Source of the DNA: Candidatus Aenigmatarchaeota archaeon
GTDB lineage: Archaea; Aenigmatarchaeota; Aenigmatarchaeia; GW2011-AR5
Assembly: GCA_016198685.1 (NCBI GenBank)
Contig: JACQID010000001.1
Span: 1 to 37,981, forward strand
Direction of reading: 5' to 3'
DNA: 37,981 bases
Both the position numbers and the translations under genes were made by a program. Numbering within the stretch: position 1 is the first letter of the stretch; every line of letters starts with the position of its first letter. Of this stretch, positions 10,552-32,838 are shown one piece after another. The notes under the pieces are model-generated. The model made no database searches. It saw nothing but the letters and a program-made list of their open reading frames with translations, and was not told the origin of the DNA.

Positions 10552-11925
10552 ATGGAATGGCCAATTTTTTATAAAAGTGAACTAAAGCTTGGCAAGGGCT
10601 CGGCTGCTATATGCACTCTTTGGACAAAAAAGGAGATAATCTGGAAGGCGCTTGACGAAGGCGGCTACAGCGTCTGCGCAAATCTTTATACAATTCAAGG
10701 AATAAACCCGCTCATCAAGAACGTTCTGGCGCGGCCGGAAATAAGGACCATAATACTGTGCGGAGCCGATCTCATGAAGAGCGGGGATGCGATTCTTAAC
10801 CTCATGAAAAATGGAATTGATGCAGAAAGAAAAATAATAGGCTCTGCAGGTATCATAGATTCCAATATTCCATTGGATGCTCTGGAAAAATTCCGGCAAA
10901 ACGTGCATATCATAGATATGCGAGGAAAGGAAAGTGAAATCGCAAGCGAAATTGCAAAATATACGAACCAAGAATCATTTATGGAGCCTCTTTTTATAAC
11001 AGAACTTGACAAGGTTTCATTCCCTCTTTATACTAAAGAGCCGGTATTCAAAATATTTGGAAGATCGCCTGACGAGGCATGGCTCAAGGCATTGGACGTC
11101 GTAACGAAATTTGGGGACGAAAAGCCTACAGAATATAATGCAAAAATGAAGGAAGTGATAGGCATAGTTGCGGTCATCGAGGAAGATATAGAAAGCGTAT
11201 TTCTCTCAAAGGAGGATGCTGAAAACTATTACAAGACGGTCTTCTCGGCGCAGAAGCCAGATGGGGTCGAATATACCTATGGAGAAAGATTATTTTCTTT
11301 CAATGGGCGCAATCAGATAAAACAGGTAATTGAGCGCATTAAAGCAACTCCTTATACAAGAAGGGCTACTGCCGTAACATGGGATATTTCCAAAGACAGC
11401 GAAAGCAACAATCCGCCTTGTCTGACTCAAATAATGTGGAACGTCAAGGACAAGAAGCTCTATCAGACCTGTATCTTTCGTTCCCATGACATATTTGGCG
11501 CATGGCCTCTCAATGCATATGCTATGAGAAGATTGCAAAAATATATGGCACAAGAGCTTGCTATGGAAACAGGACATCTAGTAATACTTTCCAATTCTGC
11601 ACATGTCTATGAGCATGATTGGAGACGTGCAGAAGACATGGTGCACAACAATTATTCAGGCAAAATAACAACGTTTGAGGAAGATGAAAACGGATATTTT
11701 GTACTGAATGTCGATAATGGAGAAATAAGTGTACAGCATTATCTGAAGGATGGGAGGAAGAGCGATTATCTCTTTCGGGGAACCAAGGCTCAGGTTCTCT
11801 ACAGACAGATAACACATGAAAATTTATTTTCAAGATACGACCATGCCGCATACATCGGTCATGAGCTTGCGCGCGCCGAGACGTGCCTTAAAAATGGAAA
11901 ACGTTATGTTCAGGATGAAGCTTGA
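10552..11925 (+). CDS. thyA: Thymidylate synthase (ThyA fold) fused to an N-terminal MtrA/DUF4346-like domain
   Basis: 457 residues. Residues about 1-130 match the MtrA/DUF4346 pattern (NPLIKNVLARPEIRTIILCG, then LMKNGID, KIIGSAG, IPLDALEKF, VHIIDM). The corrinoid-ligand His of methanogen MtrA is not visible: the loop reads GADLMKSGD. Residues about 165-457 are a thymidylate synthase domain. Seen there are paired Arg (YTRRATA, 270-271) for dUMP phosphate, the nucleophile Cys290 in NPPCLTQ, FRSHD (310-313), Asn321 in PLNAYA, and His351/Tyr353 in AHVYEHDW. It should make dTMP from dUMP and a methylene-pterin. The RSHD form and low similarity leave some room for a related pyrimidine methylase. 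GlyA lies 3 kb downstream. Confidence 0.88.
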   Translation: MEWPIFYKSELKLGKGSAAICTLWTKKEIIWKALDEGGYSVCANLYTIQGINPLIKNVLARPEIRTIILCGADLMKSGDAILNLMKNGIDAERKIIGSAGIIDSNIPLDALEKFRQNVHIIDMRGKESEIASEIAKYTNQESFMEPLFITELDKVSFPLYTKEPVFKIFGRSPDEAWLKALDVVTKFGDEKPTEYNAKMKEVIGIVAVIEEDIESVFLSKEDAENYYKTVFSAQKPDGVEYTYGERLFSFNGRNQIKQVIERIKATPYTRRATAVTWDISKDSESNNPPCLTQIMWNVKDKKLYQTCIFRSHDIFGAWPLNAYAMRRLQKYMAQELAMETGHLVILSNSAHVYEHDWRRAEDMVHNNYSGKITTFEEDENGYFVLNVDNGEISVQHYLKDGRKSDYLFRGTKAQVLYRQITHENLFSRYDHAAYIGHELARAETCLKNGKRYVQDEA

Positions 11926-12584: not shown

Positions 12585-14168
12585 ATGTTTACAGAGGAAC
12601 AGATTCGCACACTTTCCAAGTTCATGACCAATACTGACAAGCCGATATTTGCACTCAAAAACCTTCCTGAAGTCGTCAAGGGCGCGATGTTTTCGAGATA
12701 CAGCAGGACATCCAAGAGCCTGCGCGAGCTTCTTTTGAGTGAATTTTTGCAGAATCAGGATATTTCTACCATGGATCTTGAAGGCATACCTACCAAGAAA
12801 GCCGAGGAATTCTATGATAGGGTTCTTGTCGAATATGGTGACGACTCTGTAGCCGAACTTGGCGGCGCCCATATTGCATGCGAGGGCGTTTCCATGATAG
12901 CAACGAAAATCCTGGAAGATGCGCGCATAGGGCTTTCGCCGCTTGAGAAAAGCACAAGGTACGTATTCTTCAATGAAAAACAAGACGGAAGGTACAAATT
13001 CTGCCGCGAGACCTCGATAATGAGTTCGGAATTCGCCGGTCTTTACGAGGAAACGTGCAATATGCTTTTCGACATGTATTCAGAACTCATAGAGCCGATG
13101 AAGGCTTATATTATTAGCATATTTCCAAAGCCAGCTGATATGACGGATAGGGCTTATGATTTCACGGTGCGCGCAAAAGCCTGCGACGTCCTGCGTGTAT
13201 TTCTTCCTGCATCGACCCTGACGAATATGGGAATATACGGAAACGGGCGGGCATTTGAGTATCTTATAACCAAGATGTACGCATCGCCGATGCAGGAGAT
13301 ACAGCATATAGCAAAAAGCATGCAGGAAGAACTGGGAAAGATAATACCCTCTTTTGTGAAAAGAGCTGATGACGCTTACGGCAGGACAATGCAGGAATAC
13401 ATGAAACAGACAGAAACATCTACGCGTTCGCTTGTTTCTTCACTCGCCAAGAGCAATGGGACAGAAAGCGAAGAAGTCATACTGGCCAGTTTTGATAAGA
13501 ACGCCGAGGAGAAGATAATTGCCGCAATCCTTTATTCGCATTCGCAGATTTCCATGACTGAGTCTCTCCAGCTTTCGCATTCAATGAGCTTGGATAATAA
13601 GGCAAAGGTAATTGAAGAATATACGAGACAAAGAAGCAACCGCCGCCACAGGCCGGGCAGGGCATTTGAGAACGCGTATTACACATTTGATATCTTGGGC
13701 AATTATGGAATATACCGCGATTTGCATCGTCACCGTGCCTTGACCCAGCAAAGACAAATTCTGACAACAGAGCTGGGATACGATATCCCTAAAGAGCTTG
13801 TAGCTGTAGGAGCTGCTGAAAAATATCATGATGCGATGAGAAAAGCGGGCGAAGCATGGAAAAAAATAAGCGCCAAGATGCCATGGCAGGCGCAGTATGT
13901 CGTGCCGTTCGGCTATCGCATCCGATGGTATTTCACGCTGAATGCGCGAGAGCTTTATCATCTTCTGGAGCTACGAACCGTGAAGCAGGGCCATCCTGAT
14001 TACAGACGAATATGCCAGAAGATGTATGTTCTTGCCAAAGCCGCCCATCCTGCAGTTTTCAAGAACATGAGATTTGTTGACATGAATAATTATGAAATGC
14101 AGCGCGATGAGGCGGAAAAACGCATTGATAGGAAGATGGAAGACGTAAGGAAGAAATACGGAAGCTAA
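12585..14168 (+). CDS. Internally duplicated ThyX-like protein (FAD-dependent thymidylate synthase superfamily)
   Basis: 527 residues, about twice a normal ThyX. Copy 1 (about 30-260) has EYGDDSVAE (83-91), a CEGVS strand, an SxRY motif at STRY (123-126) and a later VFLPASTLTN...GRAFEYL segment. In place of RHR it has DAR (112-114). Copy 2 (about 340-520) has FENAYYTFDI, the RHR of HRHRALTQQ (382-384) and the VVPFGYRIRWYFTLNARELYHLLELR segment. The Ser expected seven residues after RHR is Ile392. The two copies therefore seem to share the ThyX signature between them. Proteins of this size and type are widespread, but whether they make dTMP is uncertain. A ThyA-type enzyme lies immediately upstream. 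Confidence 0.88.
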   Translation: MFTEEQIRTLSKFMTNTDKPIFALKNLPEVVKGAMFSRYSRTSKSLRELLLSEFLQNQDISTMDLEGIPTKKAEEFYDRVLVEYGDDSVAELGGAHIACEGVSMIATKILEDARIGLSPLEKSTRYVFFNEKQDGRYKFCRETSIMSSEFAGLYEETCNMLFDMYSELIEPMKAYIISIFPKPADMTDRAYDFTVRAKACDVLRVFLPASTLTNMGIYGNGRAFEYLITKMYASPMQEIQHIAKSMQEELGKIIPSFVKRADDAYGRTMQEYMKQTETSTRSLVSSLAKSNGTESEEVILASFDKNAEEKIIAAILYSHSQISMTESLQLSHSMSLDNKAKVIEEYTRQRSNRRHRPGRAFENAYYTFDILGNYGIYRDLHRHRALTQQRQILTTELGYDIPKELVAVGAAEKYHDAMRKAGEAWKKISAKMPWQAQYVVPFGYRIRWYFTLNARELYHLLELRTVKQGHPDYRRICQKMYVLAKAAHPAVFKNMRFVDMNNYEMQRDEAEKRIDRKMEDVRKKYGS

Positions 14169-14891: not shown

Positions 14892-16103
14892 TTATACTTC
14901 CGGATATATCGGGAATCCGGAACACAGGTCTTGCACGTCCTTGCGGACATTCTCGCCTTTCATGGCGCGGTTCATGAGGGAGCCGACTTCCTGCATGTCT
15001 TTTTCCTTCATGCCGCGCGAAGTAAGCGTAGGCGTTCCGAAGCGTATGCCTGAAGGATCCCACGGCTTTCGCTGGTCATAGGGAACGGTATTCTTGTTGA
15101 CGTAGATGCCGTTCTTTTCAAGCAGCAATTCGGCATCTTTCCCCGTTATTTTCTGTTCAAGGTCTGCGAGTAGCAGATGCGAGTCAGTGCCGCCGGAAAC
15201 GAGCCGCATCTCGACTGCCTTGGCAAGGGCTTTCGCGTTGGTTATTATCTGCCGGGCGTAATCCTTGAACCCCGGCTTCATTGCTTCGGCAAAGCACACG
15301 GCTTTGGCGGCTATGGCGTTTTCATGGGGGCCGCCCTGCAGCCCGGGAAATATCGCTTTGTCTATTTTCTCGGAAAATTCCTGCCTGCAGAGTATCATGG
15401 CGCCGCGCGGGCCTCGAAGAGTTTTGTGCGTTGTCGTCATTACAATGTCGGCATACGGAACCGGTGACGGATAAGCCCCACCGGCAACAAGTCCTGCAAA
15501 ATGTGACATGTCTACAAACAGCTTAGCACCGACAGAATCGGCAATCTCGCGGAACCTTCTGAAATCAATCACGCGGGTATATGCGGTATAGCCGCAGAGA
15601 ATCATTTTAGGATTGTGCTGCTTTGCAAGTGATTCTATTTCATCATAATCGAGAAGCTCATTGTCCTTGCGCACGCGGTATGGCACGGCGTTATAGTCTG
15701 TTCCTGAAAAGTTGATTTTTAGGCCGTGAGTTATATGCCCGCCGTGTGACAGTTCGAGTCCCATGAATGCATCGCCCTTGTTAAGAAGTGCCCGGAATAC
15801 AGCTTGGTTTGCAGGCGAGCCTGAATAAGGCTGGACGTTCACGTGTTCTGCTCCAAAGAGCTTCTTTGCCCTTTCAATAGCAAGGTTTTCTATCTCGTCA
15901 ATAACTTCATTTCCGCCGTAATATCTCTTTCCAGGATAGCCTTCTGAATACTTGTTATGCGGAAAAGAAGAGAGTGCTTCGAGGACTGCAAGCGACGGTA
16001 TATTCTCTGAAGGTATCAGTTCAAGACCGTTTCTCTGGCGTTCCAGCTCCTTCATGACAAGGGCAAAAACGTCAAAATCCCCTTCTTTGAGCTTTGCAAG
16101 CAT
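14892..16103 (-). CDS. glyA: Serine hydroxymethyltransferase
   Basis: 403 residues, a complete fold-type I PLP enzyme that interconverts serine and glycine while loading a one-carbon unit onto tetrahydrofolate or a related pterin. Seen: LIPSENIPS and NKYSEGYPGKRYYGG near the start, SGSPAN (94-99) for PLP phosphate, VDMSH (Asp198, His201), TTTHKTLRGPRG with the PLP Lys227, and GTDSHLLL near residue 310. Slightly shorter than bacterial forms. It is the likely source of the methylene group used by the thymidylate synthase 3 kb away. Leaderless start predicted from a TATA box shared with the divergent gene at 16155. Confidence 0.97.
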   Translation of the reverse strand: MLAKLKEGDFDVFALVMKELERQRNGLELIPSENIPSLAVLEALSSFPHNKYSEGYPGKRYYGGNEVIDEIENLAIERAKKLFGAEHVNVQPYSGSPANQAVFRALLNKGDAFMGLELSHGGHITHGLKINFSGTDYNAVPYRVRKDNELLDYDEIESLAKQHNPKMILCGYTAYTRVIDFRRFREIADSVGAKLFVDMSHFAGLVAGGAYPSPVPYADIVMTTTHKTLRGPRGAMILCRQEFSEKIDKAIFPGLQGGPHENAIAAKAVCFAEAMKPGFKDYARQIITNAKALAKAVEMRLVSGGTDSHLLLADLEQKITGKDAELLLEKNGIYVNKNTVPYDQRKPWDPSGIRFGTPTLTSRGMKEKDMQEVGSLMNRAMKGENVRKDVQDLCSGFPIYPEV

Positions 16104-28947: not shown

Positions 28948-28968
28948 TAAGTCTGTAATATGTCTGCT

Positions 28969-31900
28969 ATGCATAAGGGCTGGCTTCTCGCAGCATTTGT
29001 CGTGGTTTCACTTTTTCAGGCATCCCATGCCGGCGAATGGAAAGAATGTTCTTCAGCGAATCTTGGGGAAGAAATCGGGGTTGATTCTAAAACATATACA
29101 TGCTGCTATGTCAGCAGCAGTGCACAATGGAAGGACGATGTCATGGCATGTGACAGGCCTGTTGTCACGGTGACACACAGTCCTGCATCCGTAGGAATCG
29201 GGGCAGCCGTGGGCTTTACCGCTACTGCGACAAGCTCCCTGCCTCTCAGTTCAATCATCATATTTATTGATGAGAATGATAACAAAATCGATGCCGATGG
29301 CAAAAATTCATATGAATTGCAGTTAACAAGCCCTGCATGCACCGGACAGGCAGCTCTTGGGCCAAAGACTTGTACATATTCCTCTCCGTCAAGAACTTAC
29401 AATACAGATGGACAAATAGTAAATTACAAAGCGTTTGCGCAGGGCAGCAAAGGACGGATATCGGATGTTACATCTCCAAAATCATTCACTGTCTCATCAA
29501 ACCCGATTCCCGTGTCTGCGATAACAGTCACGCCTGACAGGGAATGGTACGGGCCTGCCCATGCATCGGCAACCTTGCGATTTGATTATTCCGATGCCAG
29601 TAGCGTCGGGAATGAAAAACTTCAGCAATGCGAATACACTATAACAAGGGCAGGCACGCCTACGACTACAAGCGTTTCCTGCTCCAGCGTTGGTTCAGCC
29701 ACGCAATCTACTAGCCTGATATTAAGCGATTGTGGCCAGGGGGCGAGTGGGTGCGTTGCGAGCGCAAGAGCCAAAGACAACAGGGATTTCATATCACCAG
29801 TCACGCGCAACATTGGCGTTGACAGGACAAGTCCTTCAGCGACATCTCCTGTGCCTGGTGCGTCTTGCACCGCAGCTGCAGGGAAGGTTGCGAAAGGAGA
29901 AACCGTAGTTTACAGCTCAACAGCATCAGACGCTCTGAGCGGGGTAGCTGGAGGAACGTGCAAATTGCAGATAAAGAAAGCTTCTGATTCCTGGGCATCG
30001 GCAACAGAGTATCCGTTTACCGGCGGCTGCTCGGGAGCATGCAGCACGCCGGTTTCAGGGCCTGCTTCCCTCACAGAGCCGGGCATCTATAATACCAGAG
30101 TATTATGCATTGACAACGCCGGCAATGCAATGACTGATAATACTAATATCGACAATGTTGAGGTCACGAATGAAGAATGCTCATCGATTTTTGAGGTGAC
30201 GGTAACGGATTCCAAAGATCCTGTCGAAAGGATTGAAGCTTTTGCGTACACTGTAAATGTCAAGAATACAAGAGCTGCAACAGCAAACGCTGTATCGTTC
30301 AGCCTTGTTCTTCCGGCGGCGTTTGCTGACTTTCTTGGAACTCCGGAATCATGCTCGCAATCCGAAAGCACCATGACGTGCCAGATAGGAAACCTTGCAG
30401 GCGAAGGCGAATCGTCAACGACCATAAGTGTCAGTTCCAAGGAGTCCGTAGGCACATTCCGGGTCGATGCAACCGCGATAGATGCGGCAGGCTCGACAGG
30501 CTACGGAAATCAGCTAACAACAGTGATTGCGGGTTCTTCTTCGACGACAACTTTGCCGGCAGGACCAGTGGCTCCGCCAAGCGGCGCGTGCAGCACAGAA
30601 GGCGCAGAGCAGTGCGTTGGCGGACGGCATTATGTCTGCCAGAACGTGGGCAGCAGCTTGTGCGCTTCAGGAACTGACAGGCAAAGGTACAATGACGGGA
30701 TGTCAGGATGCGAGAAATCCGGATCCGGAGGCATTACCCAGGATCAGGCGGCAAGTCTGTGCGCATCCGGAACTCATCTATGCACGCTTGACGAATACTT
30801 GAGCAATGGAGGAAGAACAACGCCGCCTGACCTAAGATTTTACAGGCTTGGGGACTCTACAACGCGATATCTTGACACATCATGCTCAGGAACTCCATAC
30901 TTCCTTCCGGGTTCCGGGGGGTGTCTTGTAGCAAGGCAAGTTACAAATGGTTATAGTCCTAATGCAGCATCATGCGCAACTGCCACCCAAGGCTATTTCG
31001 GTTATTCATATCCCGAGTCGGGATATGGCAGTTATTGGGATCCGGTTATTTCAAACAGACGTTTTGATTATGCCGGAACGTGTTATGATACTACAGGTTA
31101 TGGTAGCGATGATGTTAAAGGTGCCGTGTGTTGTGGCATCCGCGCGCCTTCGCTCCAATGGCAGGATGTCGGAGCGTGCGTTCCGGACTTTTCAATAAGC
31201 CATGATCCCAATCCTCTGACGCTCGCGCCGGGCGAGATGGGTATTGCAAATGTGAACATAGATCCTATTAACGAGTTTACAGGCAATGTTCGGCTCTCAG
31301 GCTCTTGGAGTGGAACTCCTCTTCCTGGAGACGCTATTACTGAAGAAGGCAGGAATTTCCTATATATACCGGATTCAATTAGCCCTGCAGCGCCCGGACA
31401 GCTTTTCATATACGCAGACAGGGCAACGCCCTTTAGGGATTATACAATGAGGACTACAGGAACTTCTGGAAGCCTTATCCGGACTGGAGACCTCACGGTT
31501 CGCGTAGGGACTCCTGAAGGCTTTGCGGTTGTTTATCCGTCGCCGATTCTGATCATAAAGAAGCATCAGAAAGGCAATGCCGTTGGAATAGCGAATGTCG
31601 AGATAATACCATCCGCTTTCGCGCAGCCTGTAACGCTTTCAGGCAGATGGCTCGATGATGCGCCTGCAGGAGTAACGTTCCTGTTTAACCCTGCGGTAAG
31701 CATTGCATCAGAGGGAACGAGAGAATCGGATCTCATAATGACAGTCCCTGCTCTTGCTCCCGAGGGAGTATACATACTTGAAACTATAGGCACGGCAGCG
31801 ACAGGCGAGAGGAACACGTATCTTATTGTAATAATAGAGTCTCCAGGAACCGAGCCTTTCATAATAGGGCCTGACATGATAACGGTCAACGACATAAAAT

Positions 31901-32838
31901 ATGATTACGTTGAAAGAAAATTTGTGGAGATAATACCGCAATTCCAAAAACTATGCACGGCTCCGGAAGGATGCCCTGACTTTACAAGAGGAATGGTATC
32001 GGATTTCTTTGTCGCTGCTACTGTTAATTCGATACCTGAAACCGAATGCAGCCCTGATGCTGGATGCAGCGGAACCTACACTTTTGGAGGAAAAACTCTG
32101 CCTTTGGTCTGGAACCCGTTCAGGAAAGCATGGAAGGGGACTATGGACACGCTTGATGCTGATTTCGGGGGCGTTTGCACGGACAGGGAATTCGATCTTG
32201 ACGTGAGTTTTGTCACGGAAACGCTAAGCAAGGACAGCAAATTCAAAGTTCATATTAATTGCGACCCCAAAGTCGTTGTCAGCCCGTTCCAGGCGAGAGT
32301 GCCTATCGGGCAGAAGAACTTGAAGATATTTGACATCATGACGTACGATCCTGCAACTATAGACACGCCTGCCGAAAAATATGATATAGAAGTCGCTACA
32401 GACAAGCTGGCTGCAAAGAGCGAATTCCTCAGGCACTGGATTGCAATGCAATGCGATGAGGAATGCAATATTCTTGAGGAGGATTTGGACGAAATAAAAG
32501 CCTTGAGAGAAAGAGAACCCTCTGATCTTGCAATTCTTCTTGCAGGAAATGCGGGCGAAAAAGGCGTATTATCGTCAGACTTGTTGTTCCGCGGAGAAAT
32601 ACCGGCATCTGATCCTTCAAGGGGGCTGTATGTGGCTTCTGTGAGACTCAATGATAAGGGAGCCCAGATAGCAGGCACGTATGAATATGTATTCAGGGCG
32701 TCCCGCAATCCCGTGACAGAAGGCAAAGGCGTTTTGGCAGTCTATGCCGAAGGTCTCGACCAGTTCTCATTCATTCAGGCGATTGTCACAATGCTGATAG
32801 GTTCCTTGATTGCCATTGTAGGCGCAAGAAAACCTTAG
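28969..32838 (+). CDS. Large secreted, C-terminally anchored surface protein
   Basis: 1289 residues. A signal peptide (MHKGWLLAAFVVVSLF, cleavage likely after SHA) is followed by a four-Cys module (about 25-62), Ig-like beta domains (65-400) with Cys pairs, and a DUF11-like domain (405-520). A Thr/Pro linker leads to a Cys-rich module (540-740) whose outer halves (CVGGRHYVCQN and LQWQDVGAC) appear split by a 165-residue insert. Two tandem beta repeats of the NPLTLAPGE type (745-945) resemble those in the protein at 2-1477. A further Cys-containing domain and a C-terminal helix (IQAIVTMLIGSLIAIV) with a short basic tail complete it. A surface structural or adhesion role is likely; the ligand is unknown. 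Confidence 0.9.
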   Translation: MHKGWLLAAFVVVSLFQASHAGEWKECSSANLGEEIGVDSKTYTCCYVSSSAQWKDDVMACDRPVVTVTHSPASVGIGAAVGFTATATSSLPLSSIIIFIDENDNKIDADGKNSYELQLTSPACTGQAALGPKTCTYSSPSRTYNTDGQIVNYKAFAQGSKGRISDVTSPKSFTVSSNPIPVSAITVTPDREWYGPAHASATLRFDYSDASSVGNEKLQQCEYTITRAGTPTTTSVSCSSVGSATQSTSLILSDCGQGASGCVASARAKDNRDFISPVTRNIGVDRTSPSATSPVPGASCTAAAGKVAKGETVVYSSTASDALSGVAGGTCKLQIKKASDSWASATEYPFTGGCSGACSTPVSGPASLTEPGIYNTRVLCIDNAGNAMTDNTNIDNVEVTNEECSSIFEVTVTDSKDPVERIEAFAYTVNVKNTRAATANAVSFSLVLPAAFADFLGTPESCSQSESTMTCQIGNLAGEGESSTTISVSSKESVGTFRVDATAIDAAGSTGYGNQLTTVIAGSSSTTTLPAGPVAPPSGACSTEGAEQCVGGRHYVCQNVGSSLCASGTDRQRYNDGMSGCEKSGSGGITQDQAASLCASGTHLCTLDEYLSNGGRTTPPDLRFYRLGDSTTRYLDTSCSGTPYFLPGSGGCLVARQVTNGYSPNAASCATATQGYFGYSYPESGYGSYWDPVISNRRFDYAGTCYDTTGYGSDDVKGAVCCGIRAPSLQWQDVGACVPDFSISHDPNPLTLAPGEMGIANVNIDPINEFTGNVRLSGSWSGTPLPGDAITEEGRNFLYIPDSISPAAPGQLFIYADRATPFRDYTMRTTGTSGSLIRTGDLTVRVGTPEGFAVVYPSPILIIKKHQKGNAVGIANVEIIPSAFAQPVTLSGRWLDDAPAGVTFLFNPAVSIASEGTRESDLIMTVPALAPEGVYILETIGTAATGERNTYLIVIIESPGTEPFIIGPDMITVNDIKYDYVERKFVEIIPQFQKLCTAPEGCPDFTRGMVSDFFVAATVNSIPETECSPDAGCSGTYTFGGKTLPLVWNPFRKAWKGTMDTLDADFGGVCTDREFDLDVSFVTETLSKDSKFKVHINCDPKVVVSPFQARVPIGQKNLKIFDIMTYDPATIDTPAEKYDIEVATDKLAAKSEFLRHWIAMQCDEECNILEEDLDEIKALREREPSDLAILLAGNAGEKGVLSSDLLFRGEIPASDPSRGLYVASVRLNDKGAQIAGTYEYVFRASRNPVTEGKGVLAVYAEGLDQFSFIQAIVTMLIGSLIAIVGARKP

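Follow-up and report, generated by a model that had tools for sequence, protein, structure and literature searches.

Cells cannot do without thymidylate synthesis, and the absence of ThyX from humans makes this enzyme a drug target. In its canonical form ThyX is a homotetramer, the four active sites of which are identical and are each built by three subunits. The locus considered here raises the question of how a chain that carries two ThyX-like segments, neither of which holds the full set of motifs, might act as a thymidylate synthase. The analysed stretch of DNA, hereafter the window, comprises positions 1 to 37,981 of the forward strand of contig JACQID010000001.1 (assembly GCA_016198685.1), from a Candidatus Aenigmatarchaeota archaeon. 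The gene in question and its two parts are:

12585 to 14168, forward strand: double-Thy1 (double ThyX) gene, an intact open reading frame of 527 residues plus stop, recognised by Pfam and present in relatives.
12585 to 13454, forward strand: copy 1 with linker, residues 1–290, Pfam Thy1 at 60–256 (68.7 bits), matched to M. tuberculosis ThyX by hmmsearch.
13455 to 14165, forward strand: copy 2, residues 291–527, Pfam Thy1 at 304–489 (85.4 bits), supported by fold prediction.

That two ThyX-like segments lie within one 527-residue chain, as the initial annotation had claimed, is borne out by Pfam, in which the Thy1 family (PF02511, cut-off 24.8 bits) recognises the whole protein at 149.2 bits and each half separately at the scores just given. 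In hmmsearch, copy 1 matches the solved M. tuberculosis ThyX with an E-value of 1.9e-20 and copy 2 matches T. maritima ThyX with an E-value of 4.6e-8. Moreover, the comparison of the halves with each other that had been proposed alongside that claim gives, profile against profile, a probability of 90.8% and an E-value of 1.2e-6, with a column-shuffled control at 0.1%. The AlphaFold model of the whole chain has a pLDDT of 92.9 and a pTM of 0.90, and its two halves show the same succession of helices and strands; copy 2 folded alone has a pLDDT of 92.6 and a target TM-score of up to 0.76 to solved ThyX. Solved ThyX structures are matched, with E-values down to 7.7e-10, by the whole model as well as by copy 2 on its own. 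In other words, a second ThyX fold, the absence of which would have told against the initial reading, is predicted with high confidence. Pfam finds no ThyA domain (PF00303) in the double-Thy1 protein, the strand opposite 12585–14168 holds just short broken frames, and Rfam at gathering thresholds gives no match across the whole window. The curated score for canonical thyX (NCBIfam TIGR02170) is missed by the double protein, at 69.8 bits against a cut-off of 87.9, as would be anticipated were both halves incomplete ThyX proteins.

In the M. tuberculosis enzyme (FDTS), a single site takes the RHR motif at 95–97 and Arg199 from subunit A, Ser71 and Arg190 from subunit B, and Ser105, Arg107 and the lid residue Tyr108 (with Arg87) from subunit C (PMC6514825); this assignment, from which the roles A, B and C below take their letters, agrees with the earlier statement that the ThyX active site sits between subunits. 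Residues of the window protein were mapped to M. tuberculosis and T. maritima numbering through alignments to solved ThyX chains, and the following are the positions that matter, with counts among 91 non-redundant homologues:

12840 to 12842, forward strand: D86 of copy 1, at the position of T. maritima H53, the folate/flavin-stacking histidine; Asp in 56/91, His in 35/91.
12846 to 12848, forward strand: S88 of copy 1 (M. tuberculosis Ser71, an FAD contact), kept; 91/91.
12918 to 12926, forward strand: D112-A113-R114 at the copy-1 RHR position (lost), aligned to M. tuberculosis R95-H96-R97; the R95 and R199 pair is intact in copy 1 of 0/91.
12951 to 12962, forward strand: S123-T124-R125-Y126, the copy-1 dUMP loop (kept; M. 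tuberculosis S105-x-R107-Y108); S, R and Y each 91/91, and 30/30 in a motif-free set.
13194 to 13196, forward strand: R204 of copy 1 (M. tuberculosis R172, T. maritima R147), kept; 91/91, with Arg at the copy-2 position in 1/91.
13728 to 13736, forward strand: R382-H383-R384, the copy-2 flavin-binding motif (kept); R 91/91, H 90/91, R 83/91.
13758 to 13769, forward strand: I392-L-T394-T395 at the copy-2 SxRY position (lost); S in 3/91, R in 1/91, the full set in 0/91.
13974 to 13976, forward strand: R464 of copy 2 (M. tuberculosis R199, T. maritima R174), kept, with M231 in copy 1; 91/91 versus 0/91.

The canonical arrangement, in which RHR is followed by SxRY within one chain segment, is not found in this protein, since RHR occurs in copy 2 only and SxRY in copy 1 only. 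The description of copy 1 in the initial annotation, with SxRY kept and DAR in place of RHR, is seen directly at S123-T-R125-Y126 and D112-A113-R114; a second dUMP arginine, that of M. tuberculosis Arg199, is also gone from copy 1, which goes beyond what had been claimed. For copy 2, the retention of R382-H-R384 and the replacement of Ser by I392 stand as described, but the loss was understated, the Arg and Tyr of SxRY being absent as well and the equivalent of M. tuberculosis Arg172 being Q437 in the alignments to solved chains. Equivalents of M. tuberculosis Arg190 are present in both copies (R222 in copy 1, R455 in copy 2), an equivalent of Ser71 in copy 1 only, and that of Arg87 is M104. 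Summed over the two halves, the flavin and dUMP residues make up the set of one site, except for H53, replaced by D86, and M. tuberculosis Arg87, replaced by M104. The role of H53 of T. maritima ThyX in folate/flavin stacking has been described (PMC11940539), and structures of its H53D mutant are available (4kar, 4kas). At the level of sequence, then, only copy 2 has the whole of role A and only copy 1 the whole of role C; the halves are complementary, since in solved ThyX the residues that each has kept belong to different subunits of a single site. Copy 1 probably also plays role B, as suggested by the Ser71 equivalent found there alone.

The homologues share less than 70% mutual identity and come from DPANN archaea, Cyanobacteria, Chloroflexi, plasmids and large phages. 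The same split is seen in all 91, with the R95 and R199 pair in copy 2 only and the S105, R107 and R172 triple in copy 1 only. The scan of genome contigs for homologues was baited with the copy-1 motif E-[KQY]-STRY, such that the copy-1 counts are biased; on recounting in 30 sequences obtained free of that motif, S123, R125, Y126, R204, R382, H383 and R464 are each present in 30/30. The identity of the split in 91/91 homologues and in 30/30 motif-free ones means that it is not due to chance. It extends to 20 more distant double-Thy1 proteins, every one of which has S105, R107 and R172 in copy 1 and R95 and R199 in copy 2, and in two of them an Arg of copy 1 also aligns with R95. Single-domain ThyX proteins of the same phylum have both motifs in one chain in all seven cases parsed. 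In a genome of the same genus, the homologue is 70% identical to the window protein.

Some frames within this wider collection depart from the pattern. The same phylum contains a wider set of much more divergent double-Thy1 proteins of about 400–570 residues (loci L169–L188), several of which have RQR, RND or RNR in place of RHR; these are possibly separate fusions. An apparently split version in one genome (G031, locus L189), with overlapping frames of 314 and 178 residues that meet inside the RHR region, was rejected as two genes because it looks frameshifted, and an apparent copy-1-only version in another (G106) was rejected on finding its sequence masked at the copy-2 region. Double-ThyX frames at L030 (G097:C117) and L189 (G031:C56) are interrupted by an in-frame TGA or by what looks like a frameshift, probably through errors of assembly.

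The reaction of ThyA oxidises folate, and the enzyme as a rule depends on dihydrofolate reductase (FolA; DHFR); ThyX is free of this requirement, and the company a ThyX-like gene keeps in its genome bears on its function. Among 156 genomes of the phylum, full-length ThyA is found in 12, all of which have a strong DHFR match and none of which has Thy1; conversely, strong DHFR occurs in no Thy1 genome. Double-type Thy1, as sorted by frame length, is found in about 60 of the 156, eight of which have any ThyA (Fisher p 1.6e-8, with kinship and MAG incompleteness ignored). For the core members, six of 32 phylum genomes have a ThyA-type gene and 26 are without a ThyA match (p 0.0045, kinship and MAG incompleteness again ignored). 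Many of these genomes are incomplete, mutually related MAGs, and the co-occurrence tests are consequently not phylogenetically independent. ThyA-type frames of similar length are also found in many genomes of the phylum that lack a DHFR match. More widely, 16 genomes were reached through homologues, among them the complete archaeon GW2011_AR10, several Fischerella, Calothrix, Herpetosiphon geysericola and Roseiflexus. ThyA is absent from all 16, no convincing FolA is found in them (two weak matches of about 25 bits), and no Thy1 gene besides the double one is found in 15 of them. Free-living phototrophs have to make dTMP. Given this need, and since no other synthase was found in them, the double protein most likely makes their dTMP.

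The window itself is less simple in this regard, as can be seen from the two genes of folate and thymidylate metabolism that lie on either side of the double ThyX:

10552 to 11925, forward strand: protein with an MtrA-like domain, an archaeal-type ThyA and a PterinBD-DUF4346 region, from domain profile matches.
14892 to 16103, reverse strand: serine hydroxymethyltransferase (SHMT), which makes methylene-tetrahydrofolate (NCBIfam 563 bits, cut-off 335).

The ThyA-type gene, 660 bp upstream, looks complete and has PPC, RSxD and HxY motifs in its translation. Its core, which lies between the MtrA-like N-terminus and the PterinBD-DUF4346 C-terminus, scores 171.3 bits, where the cut-off for methanogen-type thymidylate synthase is 174.55. 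M. tuberculosis has two thymidylate synthases, and the window genome may likewise have two, or the ThyA-type protein may do something else; in the presence of that gene nearby, the double ThyX may not be essential here. No ThyA match is found in the double-ThyX genomes of the same genus or family (G069, G062 and G063), of which G069 is only about 70% complete. The neighbourhood is partly conserved, in that SHMT recurs in relatives and the ThyA-type gene does not: SHMT is found at seven loci, usually adjacent, a FolC-like Mur-type ligase at seven and FolD at ten. In phages and plasmids the neighbours include dCMP deaminase with dUTPase (L038), dCTP deaminase (L034), DHFR (L033) and thymidylate kinase (L039). 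Among the viral loci L120–L153, 13 double-ThyX phage loci have an adenylosuccinate synthetase-like gene within about 8 kb and 13 have a deoxynucleotide kinase-like gene within the same distance. Elsewhere in the window, a 1292-residue open reading frame at 28960–32838 on the forward strand resembles, as judged by sequence only, a large surface protein that carries Ig-like domains in repeats.

The presence of the ThyA-type gene with its PPC, RSxD and HxY motifs just upstream gives some substance to a reading in which that enzyme makes the dTMP and the double ThyX is a non-catalytic paralogue that binds nucleotides or regulates, as might also be suggested by the lack of a full motif set in either copy and by the missed NCBIfam thyX cut-off. 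The initial annotation had offered such binding without catalysis as its alternative, and it is now disfavoured relative to a working site: the catalytic residues are invariant yet divided between the copies, which is unlike loss of function, and 26 of the 32 core phylum genomes have no ThyA match, just as 15 of the 16 wider genomes lack both ThyA and any second Thy1 gene. A purely binding or regulatory protein is hence improbable. Slightly more improbable still is a ThyX-type methyltransferase with a different pyrimidine nucleotide as its substrate (PolB, for comparison, methylates UMP) or with a different one-carbon donor. The structural matches do include PolB, which is a UMP/dUMP methylase of ThyX fold (PMC5003785), and the folate-stacking His is Asp in 56 of the 91 homologues; on the other hand, many genomes have no recognisable thymidylate synthase besides the double ThyX, the neighbours of which are genes of folate one-carbon metabolism and of the dUMP/dTTP pathway. 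As for a frame error, a misassembly, a pseudogene or a chance likeness of the second half, the gene is open over its full length in dozens of independent contigs, and both halves match ThyX by Pfam and by the sequences of solved structures, copy 2 also by fold. Independent homologues with open full-length frames refute such an artefact, which is barely conceivable.

Very likely, therefore, the chain works as a flavin-dependent thymidylate synthase, the active site of which is divided between two fused ThyX copies. The earlier suggestion that a duplicated chain with complementary halves would build one working site per pair is strongly favoured by the invariant split, by the genomes without ThyA and FolA, and by the folate and nucleotide neighbours. 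In the proposed arrangement, copy 2 would play role A only, through R382, H383, R384 and R464, and copy 1 would play role C, through S123, R125, Y126 and R204, and most likely role B, through S88 and R222. Two chains would presumably pair to give four ThyX folds in a pseudo-tetramer, in which two of the sites would be complete and the other two dead. The complete sites would bind FAD, dUMP and folate and, by means of FAD and a reductant, convert dUMP to dTMP with methylene-tetrahydrofolate. A more speculative proposal, which we regard as unlikely, is that the dead pseudo-sites have been reused, for instance as allosteric nucleotide sensors, and that together with the change of H53 to Asp they would make a regulated, asymmetric synthase with an altered hold on folate.

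With respect to origin, in a maximum-likelihood tree of the separated domains (from which the single-ThyX rows L159 and L166 and the long L164 branch were removed or replaced) all copies 1 form one clade (support 100/99) and all copies 2 another (100/100), and there was therefore one duplication or fusion before the spread of the gene. The stems of both clades are long, at about 2.5 changes per column, and their ties to single ThyX are not placed by the tree. At E ≤ 0.001, 41 of the 156 phylum genomes have homologues, which in 32 cases are strong, and at least 570 relatives are confirmed in records named Micrarchaeota, Diapherotrites, Aenigmatarchaeota, Cyanobacteria and Chloroflexi, with Roseiflexus and Herpetosiphon members among them. 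Plasmid records of Parabacteroides, Euzebya, Miltoncostaea, Bacillus and Paenibacillus also have homologues, as do large phages.

The window protein has the two features by which the double-Thy1 family can be defined, namely two Thy1 domains and a division in which the A set is in copy 2 only and the C set in copy 1 only. As judged from sequence, the double ThyX is a known enzyme in a variant architecture, one that is widespread and uncharacterised. If the proposal is true, ThyX has a second architecture, in which there are half as many active sites and each copy is specialised for one role, and this form is apparently the sole source of dTMP of many cyanobacteria, Chloroflexi and DPANN archaea. 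With the flavin- and dUMP-binding roles on separate halves, each could be mutated alone, which is impossible in a homotetramer. It would also be a clean case of complementary degeneration after fusion, with the same division in every one of the 91 homologues.

Duplication of ThyX has some precedent. Valas and Bourne (2009, PMC3224940) state that most Chloroflexi have ThyX only, and that this ThyX 'contains a domain duplication' and 'has not been characterized'; it is probably the same protein family as the window gene. The divided site and the spread to DPANN archaea, Cyanobacteria, plasmids and phages are not described in that passage, and a literature search, which covered mostly papers outside subscription, found no later study of a duplicated ThyX and no description of a divided site. 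Among proteins of similar form, the model of the thymidylate synthase of Microcystis phage LMM01 (491 residues) matches the whole double model over 516 columns, but with only about 17% identity over the structural alignment, and it is annotated plainly as thymidylate synthase; the PHROG family phrog_36506 (491 positions) matches residues 73–479 of the double protein. PolB shares the ThyX fold (4p5b) but differs in its single ThyX domain of about 240 residues and in its role in nucleoside antibiotic synthesis. The nearest known systems are the canonical ThyX enzymes, T. maritima TM0449 and M. tuberculosis ThyX, which the double protein resembles in the fold of each half, in its occurrence in genomes without ThyA and FolA and, when both halves are summed, in nearly the whole flavin and dUMP residue set. 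In contrast to them, it falls below the TIGR02170 cut-off, often has Asp at the His53 position and carries two copies per chain, with two predicted sites per four folds where the canonical enzyme has four.
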